Under the pieces are notes generated by a model. It did not search any database. It saw only the letters and a list, made by a program, of their open reading frames with translations, and was not told the DNA's origin. Positions 3,828-43,397 of a DNA stretch of 64,000 nt are shown here, piece by piece (position 1 is the stretch's first letter; every line of letters starts with the position of its first letter). The position numbers and the translations under genes were made by a program. This stretch comes from Acidaminobacter hydrogenoformans DSM 2784 (GTDB lineage Bacteria; Bacillota; Clostridia; Peptostreptococcales; Acidaminobacteraceae): the NCBI RefSeq assembly GCF_900103005.1, contig NZ_FMWL01000004.1, positions 62,001 to 126,000 on the forward strand, written 5' to 3'.

Positions 3828-3856
3828 TTGACAAATATTAGAGCTGGATGTAACCT
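3828..3856 (+). promoter_or_regulatory. Probable sigma-A promoter of the gntR-type gene
   Basis: TTGACA at 3828-3833 is an exact -35 box. At the ideal 17-base spacing lies TAACCT (3851-3856), a weak -10. The palindromic operator 3854-3865 overlaps the -10, which would allow direct repression by the regulator encoded downstream. Confidence 0.5.
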
Positions 3857-3865
3857 GTATACAGG
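3854..3865. promoter_or_regulatory. GntR/FCD operator, perfect palindrome
   Basis: CCTGTATACAGG is a perfect 12-base palindrome with the GT-N4-AC type core (TGTATACA) typical of FCD-class GntR regulators. The same core recurs at 4712-4721 and, with one change, at 4734-4743 before the operon downstream. Its position on the promoter of the regulator gene suggests autoregulation. Confidence 0.65.
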
Positions 3866-3979
3866 TGGTATATTCAGAAACTTCAGAAAATACAATTTAA
3901 ATGGATTAACAGTATATCATGTTGACACTTGTGCTTTTTTTGGATATTATTTTCCAAAATTAATAGAGGAGGAGAAAAA

Positions 3980-4669
3980 TTGACTAAACAAGCAAAACTA
4001 GTCATTCCGAAAAAAAAAGCGCAAAATCTAACGGATATTGCCTATGACAGTATAAAACACATGATCATATATAATGAGATTCCAGCTGGAGAGTTTTTGA
4101 GTGAAAATATTCTTGCACAAGCTCTCAACATGAGTAGAACGCCTGTCAGAGAAGCATTAAAAATACTTGCAAGCGAAAATTTGGTTGAAATCCATAATGG
4201 GATAGGTATTTTAGTTCGTAATATTACGACAAGAGAAGTACATGAATTGTTTGAAGTTCGTTCTGCGCTTGAATGTGCGGCAGTAAAATCATTCTTAAGA
4301 AATGTGACGGAAGAAGACCTGCTTGAAATTGAAAGAAACTGGATTAACAGCAAAGAGAAATTGGAAGCCGGTGAAGAGATTGCGTATGAAGATTTGGCGG
4401 AATATGATCACATGCTTCATTCATTAATTTATGACAAATCTGATAACTCAGTTCTTAAAGACATCATGCACAGTATTCGACAGAGGATTCAAAGGATCCA
4501 GGCATTATCAATAAGTAAGTTTCCTTATCATATAGTGACCATACAGCAGCATTTGGATATTATTCAATCAATCAAGCTGAGGGACGAAGAAGAAATTAAA
4601 CGTTTATTGGCGGAACACATTCTTTTTGCTGAAAACAACGTTCTGAAAAACTTAGATTTTCATATCTAA
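3980..4669 (+). CDS. GntR-family regulator, FCD domain
   Basis: A 229-residue transcription factor. Residues about 15-80 form the winged helix (YDSIKHMIIYNEIPAGEFLSE, then SRTPVREALKILASENLVE, the GntR recognition helix). The rest is an all-helical FCD ligand domain, including the FEVRSALECAAV start of that domain. The start is a TTG at 3980 with GGAGGAG 5-10 bases upstream; the longer upstream frame lacks a ribosome site. FCD regulators usually repress and are released by a carboxylate, often the pathway substrate. The gene is AT-rich compared with its neighbours and sits directly before the AcnX/TRAP operon, which it probably controls through the operators at 4712 and 4734. Confidence 0.9.
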   Translation: MTKQAKLVIPKKKAQNLTDIAYDSIKHMIIYNEIPAGEFLSENILAQALNMSRTPVREALKILASENLVEIHNGIGILVRNITTREVHELFEVRSALECAAVKSFLRNVTEEDLLEIERNWINSKEKLEAGEEIAYEDLAEYDHMLHSLIYDKSDNSVLKDIMHSIRQRIQRIQALSISKFPYHIVTIQQHLDIIQSIKLRDEEEIKRLLAEHILFAENNVLKNLDFHI

Positions 4670-4711
4670 AGCATGTAAAAAAGTGAAATTATTAATTTGT
4701 TTTAAGATATG

Positions 4712-4743
4712 CTGTATACAGGTCGAATATTGCCTGAATACAG
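4712..4743. promoter_or_regulatory. Paired operators before the first AcnX gene
   Basis: Two sites, CTGTATACAG at 4712-4721 and CTGAATACAG at 4734-4743, have starts 22 bases apart, about two helical turns, so bound dimers would lie on the same face of DNA. Both match the palindrome over the gntR promoter. They lie 63-94 bases before the AcnX start. No clear -35/-10 pair could be assigned around them. Confidence 0.6.
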
Positions 4744-4805
4744 ATGTGGCGTTATAAGTATTGTTTCAAACAGATGGATTTACCCGAAAAGAGGGAGGCG
4801 AAAGT

Positions 4806-6011
4806 GTGGAATTAACGAAGCACGAAAGAGAAATGCTTGAGGGCAAGCATGGAGAGGGTGTCGCAATTGCAATGAAAATACAGGTTGCAATTGGAGATTC
4901 ATTTCACGCTAAGCGGATGGTGCCAATTACGCGGGCACATGTCGCGCTCAGCAACCAAGAGGCTGACCTTTGGTTTGCAGAAAAGCTCTTAAAAGCAGGC
5001 GCGCGCTGCAAAATCCCACCCACAGTAAACCCAGGATTTAATCTTAATTACTTCAAAAGCGCCGGTAAGGTTACTGAAGAATACGCAAATTTGATGCAAC
5101 GCACCCATGATACCTATAAGGCACTTGGTGCGGTGTTGTCTTATAACTGTACGCCATACATACAAACCAATGTGCCATTTTTCGGAGAAGTCACTGCCTT
5201 TTCTGAATCCAGCGCAACACCATATGTTAATAGTGTATGGGGAGCCAGATCGAACCGCGAGGCAGCTCAGAGTGCGCTGTGCGCGGCTATAACTGGAGTA
5301 GTGCCTGAATATGGACTTCTGCTCGACGAAAATCGTTACGGTGATATTTTAGTCAATGTAGAAGCAGATATAAACAGTGATTTCGAATATCAACTTCTTG
5401 GATATATGGGAAAGAAAATTGGTACAGGTATTCCAGTCTTTACAGGGCTGCCAGCACCAATCACACCAGAGGCATTCATGAATCTGGGTGCTCAGCTCAA
5501 CACTTCAGGTGCCTATGGCATGTTTCATGTACTCGGCGTAACACCGGAAGCGCCATCTATGGAAGCCGCATTTGGCGGCAAAGCGCCTAAAAGGGTCGTA
5601 ACCATCACGAATGAAGATCTACAGGAAATATTATCGCAAATTTCAGAGCCAGGCGGTCAAAAAATTGATTTTGCAATGTTTGGATGCCCTCATTTCACAT
5701 TGCGTCAAGTGCAGATCATTGCGGAACGCGTTAAAGGCAAAAAGCTTTCTATGGAAATGTGGATTCTAACATCAAGTCATACGAAAGAAATGGCAGACCG
5801 AATGGGATTTCTGGAGATCATTAGAGAAGCCGGGGGGGATATTGTGTCAGATACATGTCCAGATCAGCCTTGCTGGCATTATCTCTCGGGCAAAACCGGT
5901 ATTACAGATTCTCCAAAGTGCGCCTATTATCCTAAACGCAGAGGTCTGAACTTCGTCATCAGAGATCTTGAAACCTGTATTGATGCAGCGCTGAAAGGAG
6001 AGGTCGATTAA
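4806..6011 (+). CDS. Aconitase X, large (catalytic) subunit, copy 1
   Basis: A 401-residue AcnX large subunit (formerly DUF521). AcnX enzymes are Fe-S hydro-lyases. Known members dehydrate cis-3-hydroxy-L-proline in bacteria or mevalonate 5-phosphate in archaea. Likely cluster cysteines are Cys115 in NCTPY, Cys294 in FGCPH and Cys351 in DTCPDQPCW. The family stretch SESSATPYVNSV and LLLDENR near 134-177 is intact. The start is a GTG at 4806 after GGGAGGCGAAA; it aligns with the second copy (MELTKHEREML against MKLTSEEKDML). The stop overlaps the small-subunit start by one base. The substrate is not predictable; none of the other hydroxyproline pathway genes, such as a pyrroline-carboxylate reductase, is nearby. 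Confidence 0.9.
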   Translation: MELTKHEREMLEGKHGEGVAIAMKIQVAIGDSFHAKRMVPITRAHVALSNQEADLWFAEKLLKAGARCKIPPTVNPGFNLNYFKSAGKVTEEYANLMQRTHDTYKALGAVLSYNCTPYIQTNVPFFGEVTAFSESSATPYVNSVWGARSNREAAQSALCAAITGVVPEYGLLLDENRYGDILVNVEADINSDFEYQLLGYMGKKIGTGIPVFTGLPAPITPEAFMNLGAQLNTSGAYGMFHVLGVTPEAPSMEAAFGGKAPKRVVTITNEDLQEILSQISEPGGQKIDFAMFGCPHFTLRQVQIIAERVKGKKLSMEMWILTSSHTKEMADRMGFLEIIREAGGDIVSDTCPDQPCWHYLSGKTGITDSPKCAYYPKRRGLNFVIRDLETCIDAALKGEVD

Positions 6012-6424
6012 TGACGGATCAACAAAAAAGTTTTCCTTGTCATCGTATATCAGAAGGTGTCGCGGAGGGTGAGGTCATCGTTTCAAAGGACGACATCATG
6101 TTTTATCTCATAAAGCCAGAAACAGGTGAGGTTATTGAAAAAGGGCATGATCTTGAAGGCAAAAGTATAGCAGGAAAAATACTTGTGTTTCCAGGGGGAA
6201 AAGGCAGTTCGGTGGTTCAAGCCGATGGTCTTTACCAGCTCGCAATGAAACAGAACGCACCCAAAGCTATGATCATACAAAACCCAGATACAGTACTTGT
6301 TTCCAGCGCTATTATCATGGAAGTCCCTATGGTCGATCAGCTGGATGAATCTTTCTATGCGGCGTTAAAGGACGGTTGCAGGGTTAGAGTTGACGCAAAT
6401 TCAGAAAAAGTAGAGTTTATCTAA
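6011..6424 (+). CDS. Aconitase X, small (swivel) subunit, copy 1
   Basis: A 137-residue partner of the preceding gene (formerly DUF126), equal to the swivel domain of aconitases. The diagnostic loop PGGKGSSVVQADGLY lies near residues 61-75, where the swivel domain contributes a Ser to the active site. Translation is coupled to the large subunit by a TAATG overlap at 6009-6013. It is expected to form a heterodimer or higher complex with the 4806 product rather than act alone. A second copy lies at 10774. Confidence in the family is high; the partner choice between the two large subunits is inferred from adjacency. Confidence 0.88.
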   Translation: MTDQQKSFPCHRISEGVAEGEVIVSKDDIMFYLIKPETGEVIEKGHDLEGKSIAGKILVFPGGKGSSVVQADGLYQLAMKQNAPKAMIIQNPDTVLVSSAIIMEVPMVDQLDESFYAALKDGCRVRVDANSEKVEFI

Positions 6425-6540
6425 TCCTTGTGAGATCAATGGATTAACTTGGGGAGGTGAAAGTCCGGACAAATAACAAATACATTTGCAAAGCAAGGTT
6501 GGGGAGTTTGGAGTGAGTATTACAATTGAGGAGGAAGACT

Positions 6541-7587
6541 ATGAAAAAGCTATCTGTATTTCTATTAATCTTTGTTATGATTTTAGGAATGGCTACTGGC
6601 TGCAGCAGCCCTGAGCCAGCGGCTCCGTCTGAGGCGCCGGCAGAAACCCCTGCGGAAACACCGGCTGAATCCGTCGTCATTAAAGTGGCTCACATAGTTT
6701 CTGAAGAAACAGCCACACACCGCGGCGCAGTAGCGTTTAAGGATTACGTCGAGAAAGAATCCGGCGGAACTATTGAAGTTCAATTGTTCCCTAATGGACA
6801 ATTGGGCGGTGACCTTCAGTTAACCGAAGCCGTTGCACTGAATACAGTTCAAATTGCTATTCCTTCAACTGCAGTTTTAACAGCCTATGATCCTATATTC
6901 GGACTGCTTGACCTTCCATTTATTTTTAAAGACGTTCGTGCAGGCTTCAACGCTTTGGATGGAGATCTCGGCAAGAAGCTGGATGAAAAGCTGGCCCCGG
7001 TCGGTCTCATGAACCTTGGTTACAGCTATAACGGTGCTCGCAGTATGTCCAATAATGTCAGACCAATCAACGAACCGAAAGATCTTGAAGGCATCAAGAT
7101 GCGCGTCATGGAAAGCCCAGTTTTCATTGATATGTTTAAATATCTGGGGGCAAACCCAACACCTATGAGCTTTGGTGAAGTTTTCACCGGCCTTCAGCAA
7201 GGCACAGTCGACGGTCAGGAAAACGCGCCTGCTTTAGTGTATGCTTCAAAGTTCTATGAAGTACAGGAATTCTATAGCCTTACAAGTCATGTTCAATCAT
7301 ATCTCGCCAATGTCATGAATGCTGACTTCTTCAACGGCTTATCTGAAGATCAGCAGAAGGTTGTCATGGAAGGTGCCAGAAAGTTCCTCGTAGAAGCTGA
7401 ACGCGAAGATGAAATTAACGACAATATCGAAACCGTTGACAAATTGAAAGAAGCTGGAATGACAGTAAATGAAATTTCAGCGGAAAACATGCAAAAGTTC
7501 ATGGATGCTTTGGTCCCAATGCATGACAAATACAAAGCTGAATTTGGTCAGGAATGGTTTGACCTCATTGAACAATACAATAATTAA
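6541..7587 (+). CDS. dctP: TRAP transporter solute-binding lipoprotein, DctP type
   Basis: A 348-residue periplasmic-type binding protein that captures an organic acid and hands it to the DctQM permease. The N-terminus is a lipoprotein signal, MKKLSVFLLIFVMILG, ending at a TGC lipobox Cys, so the protein is tethered to the outer face of the membrane. A Pro/Ala/Glu/Thr linker (PAETPAET) follows. The DctP fold is recognised from GLLDLPFIFKD, PKDLEGIKMRVMESP with the carboxylate-clamping Arg, and GEVFTGLQQGTVDGQENAP. GAGGAGGAAG precedes the ATG at 6541. A 116-base gap separates it from the AcnX pair, and a hairpin separates it from dctQ. The linker is nearly repeated in two unrelated binding proteins here. 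Confidence 0.93.
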   Translation: MKKLSVFLLIFVMILGMATGCSSPEPAAPSEAPAETPAETPAESVVIKVAHIVSEETATHRGAVAFKDYVEKESGGTIEVQLFPNGQLGGDLQLTEAVALNTVQIAIPSTAVLTAYDPIFGLLDLPFIFKDVRAGFNALDGDLGKKLDEKLAPVGLMNLGYSYNGARSMSNNVRPINEPKDLEGIKMRVMESPVFIDMFKYLGANPTPMSFGEVFTGLQQGTVDGQENAPALVYASKFYEVQEFYSLTSHVQSYLANVMNADFFNGLSEDQQKVVMEGARKFLVEAEREDEINDNIETVDKLKEAGMTVNEISAENMQKFMDALVPMHDKYKAEFGQEWFDLIEQYNN

Positions 7588-7617
7588 AATTCCCCTTGCA
7601 ATTCAGCCCCACTTTTG

Positions 7618-7650
7618 CCGGGAGGTCACTCATACCTCCCGGTATTTTTC
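7618..7650 (+). terminator. Intra-operon hairpin after dctP
   Basis: CCGGGAGGT (7618-7626) pairs with ACCTCCCGG (7634-7642) over a 7-base loop and is followed by TATTTTTCT. It sits between the binding-protein gene and the permease genes and would make more DctP than DctQM by partial termination or by protecting the mRNA 3' end. Confidence 0.75.
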
Positions 7651-7718
7651 TAAAAACAATTTTTGCAGAAAGCTTTTGAAGTCCGAAAAGAAGTTCACAT
7701 TGGAAGAAGGTGACGTGG

Positions 7719-8213
7719 ATGAGAAAATTGCTGCACCTCTATACGAAGTTGGAAGAACGTTTATTAATCGCGAGCCTGGTTTTTACAGTTGTCTTGATCT
7801 TCGTACAGGTCATAATGCGATATGTATTCAACAATTCGCTATCATGGAGTGAAGAGCTTGCGCGTTACATATTTATTTGGCAAATCTGGTTAGGTACAGG
7901 TGTTGGAATTCGATTGAAGGAGCAAATCCGAGTTGGAATTTTAGCGAAAAAATTGAGTCAGACTGGAGCAAAGCTGCTGAATGCTGTAGCTTTGATAATA
8001 CTCTTGATGTTTTGTATTTTTCTAGTCATAAACGGCTACCAGCTTGTCATGAAGATTGCTGGAAGAAATGCACTTTCAACGGCCTTGAAAATACCATTAA
8101 GCTATGTATATTTATCACTGCCATTCAGTTCAGCAATAACGAGCTTATATCTCATAGATCAATTGGTTGAGTTGTTCAAACCTGCAAAAGAAACGGAAGG
8201 GGGGACAATATAA
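7719..8213 (+). CDS. dctQ: TRAP transporter small permease, DctQ type
   Basis: A 164-residue membrane protein with four predicted helices (about residues 15-38, 47-65, 86-110 and 125-148) and the DctQ signature SLSWSEELARYIFIWQIWLG near 40-60. It is the small subunit that supports the sodium-driven DctM channel. The ATG at 7719 is preferred, with AGAAGG 8 bases upstream; a GTG at 7710 is possible. Its stop lies one base before the dctM ATG, so the two are translated together. The substrate follows from DctP and is unknown. Confidence 0.9.
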   Translation: MRKLLHLYTKLEERLLIASLVFTVVLIFVQVIMRYVFNNSLSWSEELARYIFIWQIWLGTGVGIRLKEQIRVGILAKKLSQTGAKLLNAVALIILLMFCIFLVINGYQLVMKIAGRNALSTALKIPLSYVYLSLPFSSAITSLYLIDQLVELFKPAKETEGGTI

Positions 8214-8214
8214 A

Positions 8215-9495
8215 ATGGAAGCTTTGTTTCTTTTTGGATCCTTTATTGTCCTGATCATTCTCAGCGTTCCGATTGGATACGCCGTAGGCATATCAACGGC
8301 GATAACGCTGTTCTTTTTTGCGGATATCCCACTTGTCATGGTGACACAAAACGCAGTTGCAGGGTGTGATTCATTCCCTTTGATGGCGATCCCTTTCTTT
8401 ATCCTCGCTGGCAGTCTAATGAGTACGGGTGGTGTAGCCAAGCGGCTTTTGGACTTCGCGAATATGATTTTTGGTTACTTTACCGGTGGCCTTGCTATGG
8501 TTACAACTGTATCCTGTATGTTCTTCGCGGCTATTTCAGGCTCTGCTATGGCTACGACATCAGCAATTGGGACTTTTATGATCCCAGCAATGAAGGAAAG
8601 AGATTATGACACAGGCTTTGCAGCGTCTTTGACTGCTGCAGCCGGAACTATTGGCGTAATCATTCCACCAAGTATTCCGTTCGTTATTTATGGGGTCGTT
8701 GTCAATACATCCATCAGTGACCTGTTTATTGCTGGCTTCATTCCTGGTGTCTTAATGGGTGTAGCGCTTTTGACTACCTCGTACCTATTAGCAAAAAAGT
8801 ATGGTTATAAAGGGACAGGACATTTTCCAAAAGCGAAGGAAGTTCTTTTATCCTTCAAAGATGCAATCTGGGCGATCTTAGCGCCAACGATTGTACTTGG
8901 GGGGATTTACGCTGGCGTTTTTACACCAACGGAAGCTGCAGTCATAGCAGTCGTCTACTCGGCCTTTGTCGGCGCTTTTATATACAAAGAGCTGACATGG
9001 AAACTACTATACAAGTCTTTATTTGACACTATTTTGATTAATGGCATCACAACCTTTATGGTGGGCTTTTCCATGGCATTTGCAGGATATCTGAGCATAC
9101 AGCAGATTCCTACGGCAATCGCAGATGCTATTATGACCATAACGACGAATAAATTCCTGTTATTGTTGATTATCAACCTGTTTCTTTTGGCAATTGGCAC
9201 CTTGATAGACAATATTCCAGCCACCATAATCCTTTCTCCAATATTGCTGCCAATTGTTACCCAACTTGGCATGTCGCCTATCACTTTTGGTGTTGTCATC
9301 ACAATGAACCTTGCGATCGGCTTTATCACCCCGCCATATGGCATCAATCTGTTTGTGGCGTCAGCAGTTGGAAAAGTATCTATCGGCAGCATGATGGTAT
9401 ATATGAGATACTTCCTTTTGGCATTGATACTGGTTTTAATGGCGACAACGTATATCCCTGCAACTACTATGTTTTTGGTAAATTTGCTGAGATAG
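8215..9495 (+). CDS. dctM: TRAP transporter large permease, DctM type
   Basis: A 426-residue, strongly hydrophobic protein with about a dozen membrane segments, the transport channel of the TRAP system. Family stretches seen are ALFLFGSFIVLIILSVPIGYA at the start, AGSLMSTGGVAKRL, ISGSAMATTSAIG, TIGVIIPPSIPFVIYG and the C-terminal FGVVITMNLAIGFITPPYG. It uses a sodium gradient to import the acid bound by DctP. AGGGGGGAC precedes the ATG at 8215. The gene lies between the two AcnX pairs, so its cargo is probably the AcnX substrate or a precursor of it. Confidence 0.94.
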   Translation: MEALFLFGSFIVLIILSVPIGYAVGISTAITLFFFADIPLVMVTQNAVAGCDSFPLMAIPFFILAGSLMSTGGVAKRLLDFANMIFGYFTGGLAMVTTVSCMFFAAISGSAMATTSAIGTFMIPAMKERDYDTGFAASLTAAAGTIGVIIPPSIPFVIYGVVVNTSISDLFIAGFIPGVLMGVALLTTSYLLAKKYGYKGTGHFPKAKEVLLSFKDAIWAILAPTIVLGGIYAGVFTPTEAAVIAVVYSAFVGAFIYKELTWKLLYKSLFDTILINGITTFMVGFSMAFAGYLSIQQIPTAIADAIMTITTNKFLLLLIINLFLLAIGTLIDNIPATIILSPILLPIVTQLGMSPITFGVVITMNLAIGFITPPYGINLFVASAVGKVSIGSMMVYMRYFLLALILVLMATTYIPATTMFLVNLLR

Positions 9496-9556
9496 GCAAT
9501 TTAATAAAGAGACCTGACTATGTAACGCTCAGTTTACTGATTTATGGAGGTGCGAT

Positions 9557-10774
9557 ATGAAACTAACTTCTGAAGAAAAAGACATGCTTGCAGGAAAATA
9601 TGGGGAAGGCATTGCAGCTGCTATGAAAATTCAGGTTGCAATGGGGGAGACGTTTGAAGCTGAACGCATGGTGCCCATCACGCGGGCCCACGTTGCATTG
9701 AGTGCCCAGGACGCTGATCTGTGGTTTGTGGAAAAGCTTCTAAATCTTGGCGCGACCTGCAAAGTATCACCAACGGTTAATCCAAGTATTGATTTAAAAT
9801 ATCTAAACAAGAATCTTTTTGAGATTCCTAAGGCAGGCATAAACATAGTAAGTTCGACTAATGAGGCATATAGGAAAATTGGCGCAACTTTAACGTTTGA
9901 CTGTACACCTTATCTCCAACAAAACGTACCTGGATTTGGGGAAGTCATTGCTTTCTCAGAATCCAGTGCTACGCCATATGTCAACTCAGTACTTGGTGCG
10001 AGATCTAATCGAGAATCCTCGCAAAGCGCGTTATGTGCTGCAGTGACCGGCATTGTGCCGGAGTATGGATTACTCTTGGATGAAAATAGAAAGGGAGAAA
10101 TCCTTGTTGAAGTCGAGGCGAAAGTAGAAACAGATTTCGATTATCAGCTTCTCGGCTGGTGCTATCCAGAGCTTTATAAGGGGCTGGAAATCCCAGTATT
10201 CACCGGTATAAAAGCAAGGCCGACACCAGCTGGCTTCATGAATTTTGGCGCACAGCTCAATACTTCGGGTGCAGTCTCTATGTACCACATGGTCGGCATA
10301 ACACCTGAAGCGCCGACTCTCGAAGCCGCATTTGGTAATAATAAGATCAAACATCATATTAAAATCACAGATCAGGATCTTGCCGCAACGCGTGAGCGTT
10401 TGTGCAGAGAACCCGGCAAAATAGACTTCGCCATGTTTGGTTGTCCACATCTCAATATCGATCAGGTGGAGACCATTGCCAAGACTGTTGGCGAACGCAA
10501 ATTCGCAGTGGATTTCTGGGTGCTGACAAGCTCGCTGACGCGTGAACTTGCTGACCGTATGGGTTATTTAGATGTCATTCAACGTGCCGGCGGCCATATT
10601 ATCGCAGATACTTGTATTGACGTTCCGCCTTGTTGGCAGCCGTATTACGGGAAGAATGCAGTGACGGACTCGCCTAAGTGCGCTTATTACAATGAAATCA
10701 GAGGCATTAAATTTATCATCCGTCCATTGGAAGAAGCAGTTGAAGCTGCAATTCTCGGGGAGGTGCTCAAATAA
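9557..10774 (+). CDS. Aconitase X, large (catalytic) subunit, copy 2
   Basis: A 405-residue paralogue of the 4806 product, clearly similar along its length, with the same candidate cluster cysteines in DCTPY (Cys116), FGCPH and DTCIDVPPCW. It differs in the loop after residue 80 (LNKNLFEIPKAGINIV) and in a small insertion around LLGWCYPELYKG, both likely to shape the active site. This suggests a different stereoisomer or substrate rather than a redundant duplicate. TGGAGGTG precedes the ATG. It overlaps its small subunit by one base in the same TAATG arrangement as copy 1. Two AcnX pairs flanking one transporter is unusual. Confidence 0.9.
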   Translation: MKLTSEEKDMLAGKYGEGIAAAMKIQVAMGETFEAERMVPITRAHVALSAQDADLWFVEKLLNLGATCKVSPTVNPSIDLKYLNKNLFEIPKAGINIVSSTNEAYRKIGATLTFDCTPYLQQNVPGFGEVIAFSESSATPYVNSVLGARSNRESSQSALCAAVTGIVPEYGLLLDENRKGEILVEVEAKVETDFDYQLLGWCYPELYKGLEIPVFTGIKARPTPAGFMNFGAQLNTSGAVSMYHMVGITPEAPTLEAAFGNNKIKHHIKITDQDLAATRERLCREPGKIDFAMFGCPHLNIDQVETIAKTVGERKFAVDFWVLTSSLTRELADRMGYLDVIQRAGGHIIADTCIDVPPCWQPYYGKNAVTDSPKCAYYNEIRGIKFIIRPLEEAVEAAILGEVLK

Positions 10775-11178
10775 TGGGAACGAAATTTGTTTGTAAACGG
10801 ATTTCTGAAGGCTATGCGGAAGCTGAAGTTATCATATCCAAAGATGCGGTGTGTTATTACTTGGTTGAGCCTGAAACGGGTTTAGTTGTCGAGCGTAATC
10901 ATGATCTCGAAGGTCGAAATATTGCCGGAAAGATTCTGATGATGCCATCTGGAAAGGGCAGCTCCGTTGTGCAGGCCGATGGTCTCTATAAGCTTGGACG
11001 CAATCAAAAAAGCCCACTTGGCATGATTATCGAACATGCTGATCCCGTTCTGGTATCCAGTGCTCTGATCTTTGAGGTGCCTATGGTTCACAAAGTAGAC
11101 CCTGAATTTTACAAGCACATCAAAGACGGTGACCGTATAATATTAAATGCTACTGAAGGTTGGATTGAGATCTTATAG
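10774..11178 (+). CDS. Aconitase X, small (swivel) subunit, copy 2
   Basis: A 134-residue swivel-domain partner. The loop PSGKGSSVVQADGLY is conserved, as is ADPVLVSSALIFEVPMV. It is coupled to the copy 2 large subunit through TAATG at 10772-10776. It probably pairs with that subunit, but exchange with the 4806 product cannot be excluded from sequence. A 75-base gap follows before the LarA homologue, with no terminator, so the operon appears to continue. Confidence 0.88.
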   Translation: MGTKFVCKRISEGYAEAEVIISKDAVCYYLVEPETGLVVERNHDLEGRNIAGKILMMPSGKGSSVVQADGLYKLGRNQKSPLGMIIEHADPVLVSSALIFEVPMVHKVDPEFYKHIKDGDRIILNATEGWIEIL

Positions 11179-11253
11179 ACTGTTACGGTCTTTTTCCTCA
11201 ATCAGTCGATGTGCAGCACGTAATCAGCATGTGTTAAAGGGGGCATCCGCTCA

Positions 11254-12540
11254 ATGATAATGGAGATTCCATATGGCTCAGAAACCATTAGTTTTAATAT
11301 CCCTGAAGAAAATTTACTTTTCGTTGGAACGTTAAAGGAAACCCGTGGTCAGACTCAGTTGGCTGAGGCAGTTCGAAAAAGTCTTGATGAACCCTTTGGA
11401 TGCTTGCCTCTTAAAGATTGCGTACATCCAAAGGATAATGTCCTCATTCTCATTGAGGATGCGACCAGATCAACGCCGGTAAAGGAAATCTTGCCGGTTT
11501 TGGTGGATTATCTTTTGGACTGCGGGTTGACTTTAGAAAATCTTGAGATTCTTACAGCACCCGGTTCGCACCGTATATTGACCGATGCGGAAATTCTTGA
11601 AAAAGTCGGCCCCGAACTAATCGATAAAATAAAGATAAGTCAGCACGATTATCAAAACGAAAGCAGTATGGTCACTATGCCATCCGTCTTAGTGAATGGA
11701 TTTGAAATTCCAGTTCAAGTGAATAGAAAGGCGCTGGAAGCGGACTTTATCATAGGGATTGGAAACATTATTCCACACTCTGACGCCGGTTTTTCTGGGG
11801 GGGCGAAGATCCTTCAACCTGGAATTTGTGGTTACCCTACTACAGCCGCGACACATATCTCAGCTGCCATGTTGGATGAAATTCCACTCGGTGTAGTAGA
11901 CAATCCATGTAGACTGGGCATGGAGGAGGTAGCGAAACAAGCAGGGCTCAAATTCATAATTAACACAGTGAAGAACCATCGGGGAGAAGTCATTGAAGTT
12001 GTAAGTGGAGACTTTGTCACAGCACATCGTGAAGGCGCCAGGATTTCCAGGAATGCGTTTTCTGTGGAAATGCCTGAGCTTGCTGATATTGTTGTTGTCA
12101 GCTCCTATCCGGCAGATCTTGACTTTTGGCAAGCGCTTAAGGGTGTCACAGCTGCTTATTTTGCTGTAAAACCCGGTGGAACTATCATTTTTGCAAGTCC
12201 ATGCTATGAGGGACTTGCCCATAACCATCCCAAATTTGAGGAATGGCTTCAGTTAAGTTATACTCATATTCTTCAAAAAACAAAGTCTGCACCAGTTGAT
12301 GACAAGTCAATCGATTTAATATCTGCTGTTCTTGCTGTATGTAATTCAAGAGCACGTGAAAAGGCAGAGATTTTAGTTGTATCAAACGGCTTGAGTGATG
12401 ATGCTGTTAATGTTCTAGGATATAAACGCGTTGCAAGTGTTCAAGCGGCAATAGATGACTTGTTGCTAAAAAACAACAAATTATCAATTGGCGTATTACC
12501 ACGAGGTGGAGACTGCTTACCAGTCTTGACTGGTTTATGA
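11254..12540 (+). CDS. LarA-family nickel-dependent racemase/epimerase homologue
   Basis: A 428-residue member of the lactate racemase superfamily, which inverts alpha-hydroxy acids using the nickel-pincer cofactor NPN. Key residues are in place: DATRSTP at 69-75, His106 in GSHR, His175 in PHSDAGFSGGAK, Lys185 (the Lys that anchors the cofactor in lactate racemase) and His201. The numbering nearly matches His108, His174, Lys184 and His200 of the Lactobacillus plantarum enzyme. The larBCE cofactor genes are not in this window and must lie elsewhere if the enzyme is active. The superfamily includes malate, hydroxyglutarate, aryl-lactate and sugar-acid enzymes, so the substrate is open. Context suggests it interconverts isomers feeding the two AcnX enzymes. 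Confidence 0.85.
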   Translation: MIMEIPYGSETISFNIPEENLLFVGTLKETRGQTQLAEAVRKSLDEPFGCLPLKDCVHPKDNVLILIEDATRSTPVKEILPVLVDYLLDCGLTLENLEILTAPGSHRILTDAEILEKVGPELIDKIKISQHDYQNESSMVTMPSVLVNGFEIPVQVNRKALEADFIIGIGNIIPHSDAGFSGGAKILQPGICGYPTTAATHISAAMLDEIPLGVVDNPCRLGMEEVAKQAGLKFIINTVKNHRGEVIEVVSGDFVTAHREGARISRNAFSVEMPELADIVVVSSYPADLDFWQALKGVTAAYFAVKPGGTIIFASPCYEGLAHNHPKFEEWLQLSYTHILQKTKSAPVDDKSIDLISAVLAVCNSRAREKAEILVVSNGLSDDAVNVLGYKRVASVQAAIDDLLLKNNKLSIGVLPRGGDCLPVLTGL

Positions 12541-12574
12541 GCAACATCGTCGCATCCACAAGGAGGTTTTACCC

Positions 12575-13663
12575 TTGTTTAGAAAATGTTTGGATCAGCT
12601 TGATGCCTATAAAGCAGGAAAACCAATTTCAGTCTTAAAGAAAGAATTAGGATTAAACCAGGTCTATAAGTTAAATGCAAATGAAAATCCAAATGGTCCA
12701 TCTAAAGAAGCTATGCGATCAGTCAGTGAGATTTTAGAACAAATCAGTACTTATCCAGACGCAGGATCTGAAAGAATTCGTCAATCACTTTCAGGCGTTT
12801 TAGGTGTCAAACCTTCACAGATTATGATTGGCAATGGTGGCGACGAAATTTTAAGATTATTGACAGAAATTTTAATTGACCCAGGTGACGAAGCAATTGC
12901 CATTGTCCCATACTTCTCACTTTATAAAAATAATGTTCAGCTAATGAATGGTATACTTAAGGAAGTTAAGTGTGAGACATTTGAATTCGAACCAAAAACA
13001 ATCCTATCCGCTATCACATCTAAGACGAGATTGATATTTTTGACATCACCCAATAATCCGACGGGTACAATTATCAGAAGAGAGCAGTTGATAGAAGTAC
13101 TGAATCAGGTTCCAAAAGACATTGTGATATTACTTGATGAAGCCTATTATGATTATGCTGCAGAGTGTATGGACTATCCAGATGGTGTGGCATACCTAAA
13201 ATCTCATGAAAATCTCATTATACTTAGAACTTTTTCTAAATCATTTGGTCTTGCAGGATTGAGAGTGGGTTATGCTGTTTCCTCGGAGAAAATAATTGAG
13301 GCTTTGCTTAAAATCAAACTGGTTTTTAATGTGAATCTCTTAGCTCAGGCAGCTGCTTTGGCAGCGCTTCAAGATCCAAGACACGTTCAAAAAAGTATTG
13401 AACAAAACAAAAAATCTTTAATGAGACTCTACGATTATTTTAATAGTCGCAAAATCGAATATATTCATTCTCATGCCAATTTTGTATTTGTAAATTTTAA
13501 TCGTCCTATTTCTGAAGTGACCCAACATCTTTCCAAAGATGGTATATTCATTACACCTGGGACGGTTTGGGGTTATGATACCTGGGGTAGGATTTCTACC
13601 GGGACAGATGAAGCTATGACTGCGTTCATTGACTCAATGGATAGTTTAATAAATAATAGTTAG
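12575..13663 (+). CDS. HisC-like PLP aminotransferase
   Basis: A 362-residue class I/II aminotransferase close to histidinol-phosphate aminotransferase. Visible motifs are NANENPNGPS at 34-43, SPNNPTG at 158-164, LLDEAYYDY near 187-194 and the PLP lysine Lys222 in TFSKSFGLAGLRVGYA. It starts at a TTG (12575) after AGGAGG. No other his genes are nearby, and its position at the end of the AcnX operon suggests a catabolic or broad-specificity role, for example transamination of a keto or amino acid made in the pathway. The gene is visibly AT-rich compared with the LarA homologue before it and may have been acquired separately. Confidence 0.85.
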   Translation: MFRKCLDQLDAYKAGKPISVLKKELGLNQVYKLNANENPNGPSKEAMRSVSEILEQISTYPDAGSERIRQSLSGVLGVKPSQIMIGNGGDEILRLLTEILIDPGDEAIAIVPYFSLYKNNVQLMNGILKEVKCETFEFEPKTILSAITSKTRLIFLTSPNNPTGTIIRREQLIEVLNQVPKDIVILLDEAYYDYAAECMDYPDGVAYLKSHENLIILRTFSKSFGLAGLRVGYAVSSEKIIEALLKIKLVFNVNLLAQAAALAALQDPRHVQKSIEQNKKSLMRLYDYFNSRKIEYIHSHANFVFVNFNRPISEVTQHLSKDGIFITPGTVWGYDTWGRISTGTDEAMTAFIDSMDSLINNS

Positions 13664-13836: not shown

Positions 13837-13998
13837 ATGGAACTCATCTATTACAAATGCCCTCTCTGCGGCTTTATCCATCAGGTCCCGGAATACTGGA
13901 TGGATTTTTCGCCGGAGGATGAACTTGAAATGGAACATATCAATCTTGAAACCAAGGAACCCTGCAGTGAAACCAAACTGCAAAAGGTTAAGCCTTAA
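13837..13998 (+). CDS. Small zinc-ribbon-like protein
   Basis: A 53-residue protein, MELIYYKCPLCGFIHQVPEYW, with one CPLCG knuckle at residues 8-12 and a lone later Cys43 in EPCSE. That is half of a zinc ribbon, so any zinc site would need a dimer or a partner. The acidic middle is FSPEDELEMEH. GAGGAGG lies at 13821-13827, well spaced for the ATG at 13837, and supports real translation. The nitrilase-family gene follows within 30 bases. No function can be assigned. Confidence 0.6.
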   Translation: MELIYYKCPLCGFIHQVPEYWMDFSPEDELEMEHINLETKEPCSETKLQKVKP

Positions 13999-19990: not shown

Positions 19991-21118
19991 ATGTTGGCTC
20001 ACAAGGCGTATCGATTTCGCATTTATCCAAATGAAGCGCAGAAAGTATTGATCGTTAAGACGATAGGATGCAGCCGGTTTGTATTTAACCACTTTCTAAG
20101 CGCATGGAACAAGGCCTACGAGAAAACGGGTAGGGGCCTCACCTACAACACTTGCGCTGCGCAAATGACTTTACTCAAAGGAGAGAAAGCGTACGAGTGG
20201 CTGAGGGAAGTGGACAGTATCGCCCTGCAGTCATCGCTAAAGTGTCTGGAGGATGCTTATAAACGATTTTTTAGAAAACAAAATGATCGCCCCCGCTTCA
20301 AGTCTAAAAAGAACAAAGTCCAGTCCTATACGACCAAATTTACGAATGGGAACATCGGTATTGTCGGCAACAAAATCAAGCTGCCAAAGTTAGGTCTTGT
20401 TAAGTTCGCTAAGTCAAGAGAAGTTGAAGGGAGGATTCTGAGCGCTACAATAAGACGTCATCCATCGGGCAAATATTTTGTCTCCATTCTCACCGAAGTA
20501 GAAATGCATGAATTACAAAAGACCGGCTCAGTCTGTGGCATCGATGTGGGTATCAAGCACTTCGCCAAAGTATCAGATCACACAGAACGAGAAAACCCCA
20601 AGTGCTTCAGAAAATATGAGGCTGAGCTCGCAAAAGCACAGCGGGTGCTTTCGAGGCGCGTGAAGCATTCAAAAAACTGGGAGAAACAAAGAGTTAAAGT
20701 CGCTAAAATCCATGAAAAAATCACCAATGCAAGAAAAGACAACCTACACAAATTTTCTTACGAGATCATCAAAAATCACGATGTGATCGGAATAGAAGAT
20801 TTGCAGGTTTCTAATTTGCTGAGGAATCACAAAATGGCGAAATCCATCGCTGATGCGTCCTGGTCATACTTCATAAGCATGCTTGAGTATAAGGCAAAGT
20901 GGTATGGCAAGCAGGTTGTCAAAGTGGGGAGGAACTTTCCTTCAAGCCAATTGTGCTCTAATTGCGGGTATAAGAATAAAGACGTTAAGGATCTTGCTGT
21001 GAGAGATTGGATTTGTCCGGAGTGTGGTATAGTCCACGACAGAGATCTTAACGCAAGCATAAATATCAAAAACGAAGCCCTAAGGCTTCTAACCGTTGGT
21101 GCGACGGGGTTATCCTAA
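19991..21118 (+). CDS. tnpB: TnpB, RNA-guided nuclease of an IS200/IS605-type element
   Basis: A 375-residue TnpB. These proteins use an omega RNA made from the element's right end to cut DNA at the empty donor site and help the element persist. The RuvC residues are Asp185 in GIDVGIKHF, Glu269 in [12 protein letters not shown] and the Asp of [12 protein letters not shown] near 350-352. The zinc finger is Cys322 and Cys325 (CSNC), then Cys342 and Cys345 (CPEC). The N-terminus [13 protein letters not shown] is typical. GGGGGGTGA precedes the ATG. Length and motifs look intact, so the nuclease may be active. No tnpA lies in the window, so movement would need a transposase elsewhere. Confidence 0.93.
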
Positions 21119-33322: not shown

Positions 33323-35179
33323 ATGAGACCAAGGATGACGCTTATTGCGCCCAATGAAGATATTTATAAAGTCGGTGTTCAAGTCGTTGAAGAGGAAGGC
33401 TTTAACTGCGAAGTGATCATAGGTAATTTGGCCCTTGGCGCTCAGCTGGCAAAAGCTTCAGCAGATGAGGGTTCTGAGGTGATTATCAGCCGTGGGGGCA
33501 CCTATCTTGACATATGCCAAATGGTGGACCCTGTTCCGTGTGTGCCCATTGATGTGTCTACGGTGGACTTGCTGAGAGCCATACATATAGCCGCCAAAGA
33601 GGATCACAGAATTGGTGTAGTGGGCTATGCCAACACCATTTATGATGCGGCATCTCTCGGAGAATGGCTTGATTATGAAATTCTTGAGATTCTGGTTACA
33701 GACCCGGAGCGTTTATATCAGCAGCTTAAGCACGCAGCAATAGATGGCCTCAAAGTGATAGTGGGAGATACAATCTCAGTCAAGGTCGCTTTGGAAATTG
33801 GACTTCGCGGCATATTGATCTCTTCTGGCAAGCGGGCAGTTTACGAAGCACTTGTACGCGCGGAGAATATTGCGCTTGTCAGAAAAAAAGACGCCTTGAG
33901 TAAGGCCAGAATAGAAACCATAATGAACTCAGTTGAAGAAGGCATTCTTGCAACGGACCACGAAGGAACGGTGACGCATTGCAATCAGGTGGCTGTTGAA
34001 TTTTTTGGATTGTCTGGTGGGACTTTGGTTGGCCATGTCATACAGGAGTGGCTGCCTGATTATAATGGCTCAGAAGAAATTATAACGCTCTCTGGCGGAC
34101 AGTATCTGGTGACGACACGCCAGATGGGATTTGACGGCAGCCTTGAAGAAGGGTATGTCATTGTTATGAAGGCCCTTCGTGCCATACAGGAGACTGAGAC
34201 GTTGGTCCGCAAAAAGCTTCACAGGCAGGGTTTGGTTGCAAAGCACACCATTGAGGACATTGTTGGGACCAGTAACGCGATTAAAGCTGTCAAATCACAG
34301 CTCGCTAAAATAAGTGAAACCACTGCTACTGTATTAATCATTGGACAAACGGGCGTCGGTAAAGAAATGATCGCGCAAAGCATCCACAATCTCAGCGGCA
34401 GAAGGGACCGTCCCTTTGTCGCGGTCAATTGCGCCGCTTTTTCGGAAACCCTCTTGGAAAGCGAGCTGTTTGGCTATGTGGAAGGCAGCTTTACGGACGC
34501 GAGGAAAAGCGGCAAACAAGGATTGTTTGAGCTGGCCCACAGAGGCACCATTTTCCTGGATGAAATCAGTGAGATGAGCCTGTCTGTTCAGGCAAAGGTC
34601 CTGAGAGTCATGCAGGAGCGGGAGGTCATGCGACTAGGTGATGACAGGATCATTCCTGTAGATATACGCATCATTGCAGCGACCAACGAAGATTTGTGGA
34701 AAGCCGTAGAAAAAAAGAAATTCCGGGAAGATCTGTTCTACAGGGTCAATGTGCTCCGCCTTGAAATCCCAACTTTGGCTGAACGCAGGGAAGACCTGCC
34801 TGTCCTGGCGGCTTATTATTTGAGGACCCACGCGCCGCTGATCAAATTGGAGCCTTTTGGTTTTGAAAGTTTAAAACACTATGATTGGCCGGGAAATGTC
34901 CGTCAACTTTTTAATTTTATTCAGCAAATGATAGTATACAGCGAAGGAAATCTCATCCGTAAATCGATTGTAGACGCTCAGATTGATAAGCTTATTAAAA
35001 CCCAGTCCCACAGTCCAGGCAATCTTCACTTCAGAGCTTCCCTTTCGGATGAAATGATATTGGAGACATTGTCTGAATGTAGTGGAAATCAAACCATGGC
35101 AGCTGAGCATTTAGGCGTGGACCGGACCACTTTGTGGCGGCGGCTTAAAAAAATCAATAAAAGGAATGAACGTCAATAG
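33323..35179 (+). CDS. Sigma-54-dependent activator with PrpR_N and PAS domains
   Basis: A 618-residue enhancer-binding protein. Residues about 5-185 form a PrpR_N sensor (RPRMTLIAPNEDIYKVGVQV), 195-290 a PAS domain and 313-550 the AAA+ ATPase. That ATPase has Walker A GQTGVGKE (341-348), Walker B TIFLDE (409-414) and WPGNVRQL (522-529). A Fis-type helix-turn-helix follows at 577-610. The sigma-54 contact loop, usually GAFTGA, reads GSFTDA at 388-393, with Asp where Gly is normal. The protein should open the -24/-12 promoter at 35306 in response to a small ligand, likely a sugar-acid metabolite. Tandem palindromes just after its stop are probable binding sites. A GTG-free ATG start at 33323 is used. 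Confidence 0.92.
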   Translation: MRPRMTLIAPNEDIYKVGVQVVEEEGFNCEVIIGNLALGAQLAKASADEGSEVIISRGGTYLDICQMVDPVPCVPIDVSTVDLLRAIHIAAKEDHRIGVVGYANTIYDAASLGEWLDYEILEILVTDPERLYQQLKHAAIDGLKVIVGDTISVKVALEIGLRGILISSGKRAVYEALVRAENIALVRKKDALSKARIETIMNSVEEGILATDHEGTVTHCNQVAVEFFGLSGGTLVGHVIQEWLPDYNGSEEIITLSGGQYLVTTRQMGFDGSLEEGYVIVMKALRAIQETETLVRKKLHRQGLVAKHTIEDIVGTSNAIKAVKSQLAKISETTATVLIIGQTGVGKEMIAQSIHNLSGRRDRPFVAVNCAAFSETLLESELFGYVEGSFTDARKSGKQGLFELAHRGTIFLDEISEMSLSVQAKVLRVMQEREVMRLGDDRIIPVDIRIIAATNEDLWKAVEKKKFREDLFYRVNVLRLEIPTLAERREDLPVLAAYYLRTHAPLIKLEPFGFESLKHYDWPGNVRQLFNFIQQMIVYSEGNLIRKSIVDAQIDKLIKTQSHSPGNLHFRASLSDEMILETLSECSGNQTMAAEHLGVDRTTLWRRLKKINKRNERQ

Positions 35180-35188
35180 GATTAAGTG

Positions 35189-35233
35189 TTGCAACGTTGC
35201 AAATGCAACGTTGCATTTTTATTGCGCAACAAT
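35189..35233 (+). promoter_or_regulatory. Tandem palindromes, probable activator sites and hairpin
   Basis: TTGCAACGTTGCAA (35189-35202) and ATGCAACGTTGCAT (35203-35216) are adjacent perfect palindromes sharing TGCAACGTTGCA. A third partial site, TTGCGCAA, lies at 35222-35229. They start about 115 bases before the -24 element, a normal distance for an enhancer site. The two copies can also pair with each other as a hairpin followed by TTTTT, so the same DNA may terminate the regulator transcript. Confidence 0.7.
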
Positions 35234-35305
35234 TCGAAATATTATGAAAAATTACAAGCGGCAGTTAGAGCAAGGCATACAAGTAAAATGCCTGCTGAAA
35301 TTTAA

Positions 35306-35321
35306 TTGGCACAAACCTTGC
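35306..35321 (+). promoter_or_regulatory. Sigma-54 (-24/-12) promoter
   Basis: TTGGCACAAACCTTGC fits the sigma-54 consensus TGGCAC-N5-TTGC exactly, with GG and GC ten bases apart in the right register. It lies 48 bases before the kinase gene and after the sigma-54 activator gene, so it almost certainly drives the catabolic operon. Confidence 0.88.
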
Positions 35322-35368
35322 GTTATTAGAATGCAACAAAGAGTGTCCCTGAAGGAGGGATTGCAGAA

Positions 35369-36655
35369 ATGAGTATAGCAATTATTGGCGACGACCTGAG
35401 TGGTTCAAATGACACAGCCGTGTATTTCAGCAAATATGGTTTTTCCAGCTGTGTTTTGAATTATCCTGAAGGGTTCCAGTTAGAGTCAGGTTTTTGTGAT
35501 GTATTGGCTATTTCGACAAATACCCGGGAGTCTGTCCCTCAGGAGGCAGCAGAGGTCGCAAAAGAGGTATCCACTTACTTGCTTCAGTTGGGCATAGACA
35601 ACATTTACAAAAAAATAGATTCCACGTTTCGCGGCAACATAGGCGCGGAAGTTGAGTCAATAATGGAAACTATTGGTATTCCATTGGCTTTAATTTGTCC
35701 GACCTTTCCAAATCTGCAGCGTACGGTTCACAGCGGGTCTCTCTACATAGACGGTATTTTGCTTGAGGAAACGCCTTTTGCTCAGGATCCGGGCTGCCCT
35801 GTCCGGGAATCGTATCTGCCTGAGCTTCTAAAGAAACAGACTTCGTTAAATGTCTCACTGCTTGATTTGAATACTGTTCGAAAAGGTGTTGAGGCCGTCA
35901 CAGAGGCCTTGCTGCGCTTTGCTGGAAATGGTAAATGCATGGTTGTCGCAGACGCCGTTACCAATGAAGACCTTGAAGTCCTTATCTCAGTCAATCGGGC
36001 GCTGCTGCCGCCTATGCTGTTTTGTGGCTCGGCAGGGATGTCCAGTGTCATGCTCTCCAGCAGCAAAGTTTTTACGCAGCCAAAGGCACCGCCGGTCATG
36101 ATCATAGTGGGCAGCGTCCACCCCCATAACCGCCGATTGATGGATGCCGCCACAAGCGCACAAGCCGCAGGGGAGGTTTTCCTTGATCCAGATTGCATGC
36201 AGGATCCGGACATGATTGCGAAAGCTCTCGAAAAGGCTGAAACCCTCCTGAGGGAAAATAAGAACATCATCCTTCACACCTATCAATGCGCAGAGGCGAG
36301 AAAGGCAAGCCGTGATCGCGCGAGACGTGATATATCAGAGGAACGTGAGCTCCCGGCCAATATTGGCAAAGGACTTCAGAACTTTGCTGCAGCGCTGTTA
36401 AAACATCATCTCTTTTCTGGAATTATTGTCACCGGAGGCTCCACAGCACTGTATATTCTCAGAGGGATAGAAGGTGCCGGCGTCAAGATGGTTGAAGAGA
36501 TGGAGGTGGGACTTCCTTACGGTACAGTCATTGGCGGCCCGTTGAATGGGCTTGGCATCATAACCAAAGCCGGTGGGTTTGGCACGGAAGGCGCGTTTAT
36601 TGAAGGGATTGCCTATTTGAAAAACAAGTACTTAAAAGAAAGAGGTACCGAATGA
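35369..36655 (+). CDS. Four-carbon acid sugar kinase family (DUF1537)
   Basis: A 428-residue kinase of the DUF1537 family (OtnK/DtnK), which phosphorylates C4 sugar acids such as threonate or 3-keto forms. The N-terminal acid-binding domain shows GDDLSGSNDTAVYF (residues 7-20) and KKIDSTFRGNIGAEV, the substrate-contact motif. The C-terminal ATP domain shows IVTGGSTALYILRG and GLPYGTVIGGPLNGLGIITKAGGFG. GGAGGGA precedes the ATG. The stop overlaps the PdxA2-like gene by four bases (ATGA). Kinase plus PdxA2 is the known route that turns D-threonate or erythronate into dihydroxyacetone phosphate, which supports the call. Confidence 0.88.
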   Translation: MSIAIIGDDLSGSNDTAVYFSKYGFSSCVLNYPEGFQLESGFCDVLAISTNTRESVPQEAAEVAKEVSTYLLQLGIDNIYKKIDSTFRGNIGAEVESIMETIGIPLALICPTFPNLQRTVHSGSLYIDGILLEETPFAQDPGCPVRESYLPELLKKQTSLNVSLLDLNTVRKGVEAVTEALLRFAGNGKCMVVADAVTNEDLEVLISVNRALLPPMLFCGSAGMSSVMLSSSKVFTQPKAPPVMIIVGSVHPHNRRLMDAATSAQAAGEVFLDPDCMQDPDMIAKALEKAETLLRENKNIILHTYQCAEARKASRDRARRDISEERELPANIGKGLQNFAAALLKHHLFSGIIVTGGSTALYILRGIEGAGVKMVEEMEVGLPYGTVIGGPLNGLGIITKAGGFGTEGAFIEGIAYLKNKYLKERGTE

Positions 36656-37677: not shown

Positions 37678-37730
37678 CTATTGGAATTTTACGTATGGTC
37701 CAGATTTATACTAAAAAGGAGGCAATATTG

Positions 37731-38768: not shown

Positions 38769-38784
38769 TTCAGGCAATTCTGCT

Positions 38785-38818
38785 GCAGACGGGGCTGACA
38801 CGCGTCAGTCCTGTCTGC
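38785..38818 (+). other. Stem-loop between tctC and tctB
   Basis: GCAGACGGGGCTGAC (38785-38799) pairs with GTCAGTCCTGTCTGC (38804-38818) with two G-U pairs and a four-base ACGC loop. There is no T run, so it is better read as an mRNA stabiliser that raises the binding protein level, like the hairpin after dctP at 7618. Confidence 0.65.
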
Positions 38819-38866
38819 AACTCATGTCGACTGAAGTACTCGGGCGTTTCAGGGGGTTGAAGCGTG

Positions 38867-39322: not shown

Positions 39323-39334
39323 GGGGGTGCCAGC

Positions 39335-40840: not shown

Positions 40841-40859
40841 AAACATAAGGAGTGGTCTC

Positions 40860-41945: not shown

Positions 41946-41966
41946 AATATTGCCCGTCTTGAAACG

Positions 41967-41996
41967 AAAAAGAGGCCTCGCTTGAGGTCTCTTTTG
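41967..41996 (+). terminator. Terminator-like hairpin inside the sugar-acid operon
   Basis: AAAAAGAGGCCTC pairs with GAGGTCTCTTTT around GCTT, followed by GTCAG. It lies between the dehydrogenase and the LarA homologue and could reduce expression of the distal genes. Confidence 0.6.
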
Positions 41997-42035
41997 TCAG
42001 AATTTTTCTGTGAATTACTGCTTGGAGGTGCTTTA

Positions 42036-43310: not shown

Positions 43311-43397
43311 TAGAATCGTCCGAACTGGCGCCATTCTGTCAATAAAAAAACAAGGTCCCTATGACACTTGCAAGCTCGGACAGGGAGAGTGATCACT

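Follow-up and report, generated by a model that had tools for sequence, protein, structure and literature searches.

A gene island of Acidaminobacter hydrogenoformans with two aconitase X pairs: a candidate imidazole-lactate to urocanate module linked to histidine-utilisation genes

What compound would a bacterium import and transform with two aconitase X (AcnX) enzymes, a TRAP transporter and a homologue of the lactate racemase LarA? The question is raised by a gene island at positions 3980-13663 of a 64,000-nucleotide stretch of contig NZ_FMWL01000004.1 from Acidaminobacter hydrogenoformans DSM 2784 (the window; all coordinates are positions in it). Open reading frames and Pfam domains, every score above the curated cut-off, bear out the original prediction of the gene content: a GntR/FCD regulator, two AcnX pairs, DctPQM, a LarA homologue and a HisC-like aminotransferase, ten genes that are all open and on the same strand, with the predicted hairpin present after dctP (Table 1). 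The TRAP set is complete (DctP, DctQ and DctM). In both AcnX pairs the AcnX and AcnX swivel domains lie on adjacent genes, and all four proteins exceed their cut-offs, as in two-subunit type II enzymes. From the comparisons below, we give slightly better than even chances to the island being a module for the import and conversion of imidazole-lactate, in which AcnX would form urocanate.

The two large subunits, AcnXL1 and AcnXL2, are 59% identical to each other, and both align with the characterised enzymes TkAcnX and AtAcnX, whose active-site residues we took from PMC8184944 (in excerpt). An AlphaFold model of AcnXL1 (predicted local distance difference test score 89.3) has TkAcnX (7cnr) as its closest fold, with a Z score of 47.2 and a root-mean-square deviation of 1.8 over 379 residues. 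In the alignment, the window proteins keep C110, C283, C342, Glu129, Ser130, Lys361 and Tyr365 of TkAcnX, and Ser62 of its swivel subunit corresponds to Ser66 in AcnXS1. The AcnXL1 frame is open from a TTG at 4761, from which its residues are counted here (C130, E149, C309, C366, D368, K386 and Y390); by homology, the GTG at 4806, which follows GGGAGG, is the likelier start. Asp203, which holds the proline nitrogen in the proline enzyme, is replaced by Ala in both large subunits, and the phosphate-holding loop Gly48-Val49-Ser50 of TkAcnX is deleted. Because the catalytic residues are kept while Asp203 and the phosphate loop are gone, the window proteins look like working dehydratases with a substrate other than hydroxyproline or mevalonate-5-phosphate. 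The large subunits score 228.2 and 225.6 against NF051439 (cut-off 700), a model of a fused protein to which they were compared alone.

In a tree of 111 sequences, both window proteins fall inside a 90-row clade with a Shimodaira-Hasegawa-like approximate likelihood ratio test (SH-aLRT) support of 100, and both characterised enzymes fall outside it. AcnXL2 belongs to its own 12-row subclade (support 99). The tree came from a quick search with SH-aLRT support and without bootstraps, carried a long-branch warning, and used 111 of 115 aligned rows (106 distinct), the four of fewer than 370 residues having been dropped. Every one of the 90 clade rows, and no other among the 115, has an Asp two residues past the third cluster cysteine; of the non-clade rows, 21 have a letter at this position (AtAcnX is represented by the S449C/C510V mutant chain, so that its letter there is engineered). 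As this Asp takes the place of the iron ligand Cys510 of AtAcnX, it should line the active site, where it could hold an imidazole nitrogen. Close relatives are rare: AcnX at ≥45% identity was detected in 3 of the 391 genomes of the class sample. Excerpts of PMC8184944 and PMC10040528 give the function of AcnX types IIc-IIf as unknown.

One scan of an 84,980-species collection by AcnX sequence alone, with a choice blind to hut (histidine-utilisation) genes, yielded 78 loci, mostly from Firmicutes and several of them from amino-acid fermenters. The scan used two short peptide patterns and missed some relatives. Of these loci, 75 hold a clade row; L103 (archaeal) lies outside the clade, and L105 and L108 contain only AcnX fragments. 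Open reading frames of the loci were chosen by length, which hid AcnX in, for example, L067, L068, L080 and L094, and the residue alignment used all frames. BLAST matches to representative proteins (≥30% identity) gave the neighbour counts, and the representatives of HutU (urocanate hydratase), HutI, FtcD and HutH (histidine ammonia-lyase) exceed the NCBIfam equivalog cut-offs. HutU is encoded in 22 of the 78 loci and any of HutU, HutH, HutI or FtcD in 30, a count that falls to 26 without a five-locus lyase-like group whose representative scores below the HutH cut-off. On the AcnX tree, these genes are scattered over several distinct branches. LarA homologues were found in 34 loci, TRAP genes in 34 and D-2-hydroxyacid dehydrogenases in 28; 62 loci have a hut gene, LarA or the dehydrogenase, or more than one of them. 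HutU is accompanied by LarA in eight loci and by the dehydrogenase in eight. Formate-tetrahydrofolate ligase and a second LarA family (nickel-pincer nucleotide (NPN) isomerase group 22, 492 bits, cut-off 400) are other recurrent neighbours.

The nearest relative, L031, comes from a metagenome-assembled genome (MAG) labelled Acidaminobacter sp.; its AcnX is 93% identical and the whole set stands in the same order. A conserved ten-gene set was nevertheless rejected, as it is complete only in this congener among the 78 loci. A gene set not conserved together in relatives had been named as grounds for refuting the original reading; this holds in part, for the exact ten genes but not for the core of AcnX with LarA. 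Two clade members occur in only eight loci, which speaks against the two AcnX isoforms being a conserved necessity; since the AcnX1 and AcnX2 types are each also found singly, neither seems to need the other. Two AcnX, LarA and TRAP genes coincide in five loci (L031, L047, L052, L093 and L102). At L045 (11657-13371) and L053 (from about 3249), the clade pair is followed by another, very distantly related AcnX pair (about 30% identity), and both loci also carry ammonia-lyase-like genes.

We assessed distances between AcnX and HutU in 50 genomes, namely the host, the congener and those of 48 of the 78 loci (the L081 genome was excluded). Isolates, and loci with hut or LarA genes nearby, were favoured in this selection, which took in 18 of the 22 HutU loci. 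AcnX and HutU lie ≤10 kb apart in 16 of the 50 genomes against 0.7 expected by chance, a Poisson comparison that ignores shared ancestry; the 16 of 50 is inflated because the genome choice leaned to hut and LarA loci, whereas the 22 of 78 loci were not chosen that way. HutU is present in 48 of the 50 genomes, and HutH in 41 at E ≤1e-40, 40 of them above the cut-off; the L046 genome has one weak lyase only (312.7 bits). The two HutU-negative genomes are those of L078, whose locus has HutU at a contig edge, and L105. The latter is the sole genome to lack HutU and HutH alike, and its AcnX misses about 140 internal residues.

Eight of the 48 HutU-bearing genomes have no HutH, and a search with PF00221 at E ≤0.001 detected no aromatic amino acid lyase in them. 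They are the genomes of L042, L084, L085, L087, L098, L104, L106 and L107, comprising four isolates (two Pectinatus, Agrilactobacillus composti and Propionispora) and four MAGs. HutU lies ≤20 kb from AcnX in all eight (≤10 kb in seven), compared with 11 of the 40 genomes with HutH. The absence of hutH from 8 of 48 HutU-bearing AcnX genomes compares with 1 of 53 in the class sample (Fisher p 0.0125), where the class baseline rests on the hutH model alone and its exception, G358, is 80% complete and unscreened by PF00221, and where shared ancestry is again ignored (the AcnX of five of the eight genomes come from one 8-row clade). The two Pectinatus isolates (L087 and L098) share a gene run of M20 hydrolase, deiminase-like hydrolase, AcnXL, AcnXS, HutI and HutU, and the PF00221 search found no ammonia-lyase in either genome.

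Histidine-utilisation neighbours are found in the relatives and were not visible in the window. In the host genome, homologues of HutH, FtcD, FchA, HutI and HutU lie together on contig 25, with a second HutU on contig 17 and a third on contig 22. Two urocanase copies of the host are of a 545-residue type, one of them near a divergent ammonia-lyase. Host contig 20 also has a group of divergent ammonia-lyase-like open reading frames at about 12.3-20.2 kb; genes for a TRAP DctM and a GntR regulator are in the vicinity, and the region may be another amino-acid lyase cluster.

DctP resembles many TRAP receptors (101 distinct sequences), and no ligand is indicated by the comparison. Several of the nearest receptors bind 2-hydroxy acids. 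Motif and pairwise alignment show that the LarA homologue keeps the catalytic and NPN-binding residues D69, R72, H106, H175, K185, H201 and K296. It scores below the NCBIfam equivalog cut-offs, with the malate racemase LarAH6 as the best model (306 against 500) and LarAH10 at 261 against 540. According to excerpts of two papers, LarAH10 racemises phenyl-lactate (aryl-lactates; PMC7583248) and related enzymes racemise other hydrophobic 2-hydroxy acids (PMC11770544). The host genome encodes three LarA homologues.

The 2-hydroxy acid that corresponds to histidine is imidazole-lactate. LarA enzymes invert acids of this type, D-2-hydroxyacid dehydrogenases act on C2 hydroxy acids and HutU uses urocanate; since this one simple compound would join racemase, dehydrogenase and HutU, we take it as the candidate. 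For AcnX, an imidazole acid is the most likely substrate, ahead of hydroxyproline or mevalonate-5-phosphate. The genes, residues, clade, neighbourhoods and eight genomes without a lyase match suggest the following scheme. DctPQM would import imidazole-lactate, and the LarA homologue would invert its C2 so that both enantiomers become usable. AcnX, with an iron-sulfur cluster in the large subunit (probably [4Fe-4S]) and the catalytic serine of the swivel subunit, would dehydrate it to urocanate, which urocanate hydratases encoded elsewhere in the host genome would pass on towards glutamate. Exchange between this pool and imidazole-pyruvate and histidine would be the task of the HisC-like aminotransferase here, or of the D-2-hydroxyacid dehydrogenase in relatives. 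Where relatives have no histidine ammonia-lyase, urocanate would be made by way of the same AcnX. As paralogues, AcnX1 and AcnX2 may each handle another form of the substrate (an enantiomer or a ring-modified version). Substrate, product, direction, stereochemistry and division of labour are predicted. An excerpt of PMC8669023 reports that imidazole lactate accumulates with Lactobacillus crispatus (q values of 0.1 and 0.3), which its authors ascribe to histidine breakdown.

In outline, the comparisons support the original idea of an imported 2-hydroxy acid that LarA inverts and AcnX dehydrates, LarA and AcnX being found together in 34 of the 78 loci. They do not support the further proposal that the substrate has two stereocentres or is an amino acid of the hydroxyproline type, as the residues for hydroxyproline and phosphate are missing and the neighbours are histidine-utilisation genes. 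The combination had been thought to match no known pathway, and in the open-licence literature we likewise found none described, nor any paper linking aconitase X to lactate racemase, urocanate or imidazole-lactate.

Several observations weigh against imidazole-lactate. No hut gene lies in the island, so that the hut link rests on relatives, and a core hut gene is absent within reach in 48 of the 78 loci. In the order to which the window belongs HutU is widespread (111 of 148 genomes), and for that reason we dropped the whole-genome co-occurrence of AcnX and HutU (48 of 50 genomes, compared with 53 of 391 for the class) as decisive evidence; the case rests on gene proximity and on the lyase-free genomes. 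Only five of the 78 loci have a HisC-like gene close to AcnX. LarC (PF01969, E ≤1e-10) was not found in the host or the congener, where larB and larE were not searched; the island LarA may consequently be without its cofactor, and cofactor loading in the genus is doubtful. Across 38 genomes probed, LarC is present in 28 and tracks LarA at the locus only loosely (18 of 23 genomes with it, 10 of 15 without). LarC was also not found in the genomes of L047, L075 and L085, although LarA is at the locus. Genes for short-chain dehydrogenases/reductases (SDR), alcohol dehydrogenases (ADH) and/or histidinol-dehydrogenase-like proteins in L041, L044, L081 and L082 are superfluous to the scheme and possibly mark a route for an imidazole alcohol, polyol or glycerate. 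Characterised AcnX enzymes take a beta-hydroxyl and an alpha-proton (PMC8184944, in excerpt). Imidazole-lactate would require the reverse, loss of the alpha-hydroxyl and a beta-proton, with the ring instead of the carboxylate activating the proton.

This usual chemistry would be preserved (PMC8184944, in excerpt) if AcnX acted on another imidazole acid: either on imidazolyl-glycerate (2,3-dihydroxy), giving imidazole-pyruvate for the HisC-like or D-2-hydroxyacid enzymes, or on 3-hydroxy-3-imidazolyl-propionate. Oxidation of an imidazole polyol is possible where histidinol-dehydrogenase-like, SDR and ADH genes adjoin AcnX (L041 and L081; SDR and ADH in L044). We nevertheless regard this alternative as unlikely: imidazole-pyruvate leaves unexplained the HutU-HutI operons of genomes in which no ammonia-lyase was found, and a beta-hydroxy acid leaves unexplained LarA and the 2-hydroxyacid dehydrogenase. 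Somewhat less likely still, amino-acid fermentation would supply some other 2-hydroxy acid as the substrate (C4-C6 or an aryl-lactate), with the hut genes as mere frequent companions. The TRAP genes, the many loci without core hut genes and the malate racemase as best NCBIfam match of LarA agree with it, but AcnX and HutU are close more often than expected by chance, hut genes occur on several AcnX branches, and HutU lies near AcnX in every lyase-free genome. That the lyase-free genomes import urocanate itself, with AcnX as a side reaction, seems improbable. Five of the eight loci do carry importer genes (NMT1-type in L042, L104, L106 and L107; TRAP in L084), whereas in Pectinatus AcnX stands between hydrolases and HutI/HutU, with no NMT1 or TRAP among the partially annotated genes, several of which lack an annotation and may include another importer. 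An established substrate, hydroxyproline or mevalonate-5-phosphate, agrees with family membership and with sequence identities of 29% and 36% across the fold, but was rejected on the active-site residues (Asp203 to Ala and the deleted loop), the low NF051439 scores and the tree position, and we hold it to be very improbable.

With a little less than even confidence, we suggest that the AcnX clade, often together with nickel-pincer racemases, converts imidazole-lactate to urocanate, a second and ammonia-lyase-free entry to histidine breakdown and a new dehydration of 2-hydroxy acids in the aconitase superfamily that is free of coenzyme A; the two parallel versions, AcnX1 and AcnX2, may take imidazoles with different substituents and pair with the two urocanase families. 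The AcnX2 loci with HutU (L088, L090, L092 and L102) all have the 545-residue HutU type, and 17 other loci have a 680-residue type (among them L108, whose AcnX fragment is not in the tree), with a third kind in L073. This pairing of AcnX2 with the 545 type and AcnX1 with the 680 type is only a pattern and serves as a lead. The best match of the 545 type, including the two host copies and those of L090 and L092, is S-methyl-thiourocanate hydratase, at 634-653 bits and below the cut-off of 880.

The island also carries regulatory signals, including a palindrome before gntR and acnXL1 that the original prediction did not mention. We counted five matches with ≤1 mismatch in the window against 1.0 expected; a further one-mismatch copy lies inside dctP at 6838, and another at 60158. 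The exact palindrome CCTGTATACAGG has a single copy in the 3.6 Mb host genome, and of seven genome sites with ≤1 mismatch two are in the island, compared with three sites for a reversed control pattern. As the sole exact copy and two of the seven sites are at the island, a locally acting regulator fits, and the palindrome is consistent with a local GntR operator.

Table 1. Positions of genes and signals in the island
Feature	Position	Strand	Remarks
Exact palindrome CCTGTATACAGG	3854-3865		Before gntR; core CTGTATACAG at 3855..3864; likely GntR/FCD operator
Sigma-70-like promoter TTGACA-17-TATTAT	3922..3950	+	Before gntR; 11/12 consensus letters; consensus match only
GntR/FCD regulator	3980..4669	+	FCD 80.2 bits, GntR 58.7 bits; TTG start preceded by AGGAGG
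Operator-like near copies CTGTATACAG (4712) and CTGAATACAG (4734)	4712..4743		Before acnXL1
acnXL1, AcnX large subunit	4806..6011	+	Pfam AcnX 432.8 bits over 4761-6011
acnXS1, AcnX swivel subunit	6011..6424	+	Pfam AcnX swivel 99.2 bits; catalytic-Ser motif GKGSS (S66)
dctP, TRAP solute-binding protein	6526..7587	+	Pfam 301.5 bits; MKK... start at 6541 likely
Terminator-like hairpin	7616..7644	+	11 pairs, T tail; 3' of dctP
dctQ, TRAP small permease	7710..8213	+	Pfam 110.6 bits
dctM, TRAP large permease	8167..9495	+	Pfam 380.1 bits
acnXL2, second AcnX large subunit	9557..10774	+	Pfam AcnX 423.2 bits
acnXS2, second AcnX swivel subunit	10774..11178	+	Pfam swivel 86.7 bits
LarA homologue	11254..12540	+	Lar_N 160.6 bits, LarA_C 38.8 bits
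HisC-like aminotransferase	12575..13663	+	Pfam aminotransferase 204.2 bits; HisC equivalog 318.5 (cut-off 276.55)

The island is followed, before the next gene begins, by a short open reading frame (13837-13998) that encodes 53 residues and contains a CPLCG motif. An IS605 OrfB/TnpB-like gene with HTH, OrfB and TNB domains lies at 19991-21118. A separate cluster at 33323-46539 encodes a PrpR-like sigma-54 regulator, an SBD_N/NBD_C kinase, a PdxA-like protein, a TctCBA importer, an alcohol dehydrogenase, an IlvD/EDD dehydratase and an altronate/galactarate dehydratase, and looks like a cluster for sugar-acid, hexonate or aldarate use. The window's second LarA homologue (41982-43310) belongs to this different cluster, 30 kb from the island.

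With a defined substrate and product, one of the AcnX groups whose function the literature gives as unknown becomes testable by simple spectrophotometry. If the proposal is true, histidine catabolism gains an entry without an ammonia-lyase, in which nickel-pincer racemases gain a physiological role. Imidazole-lactate would also gain possible consumers, for example the Peptoniphilus strains of L064, L065, L069 and L070, whose loci have AcnX with TRAP and D-2-hydroxyacid dehydrogenase genes.

Four known systems invite comparison. The type IIb archaeal phosphomevalonate dehydratases, TkAcnX (7cnr/7cns) and ApPMDh, share with the window proteins the two-subunit build, the three cluster cysteines, the catalytic residues and the swivel serine. 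They differ in their phosphate loop (G48-V49-S50), which the window AcnX lack, and in a Val where these have the Asp; moreover, the relatives of the window AcnX are mostly from Firmicutes, many of them in operons with catabolic genes. The AtAcnX-type proline enzyme has the same fold and the same positions of the catalytic Glu, Lys and Tyr, whereas the window AcnX are without its Asp203, have three type IIb-like cluster cysteines and keep other neighbours. With the LarA superfamily (LarAH10/HHR and LarAH6), the island's homologue shares catalytic and cofactor residues, and these are its nearest NCBIfam models; it differs in having AcnX as genomic partner, in a host in which larC was not found. 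The Hut pathway supplies the recurrent neighbours of the AcnX clade (HutU, HutI, FtcD and HutH). Its known entry is the elimination of ammonia by HutH, whereas the second entry proposed here would be lyase-free and use an iron-sulfur dehydratase.

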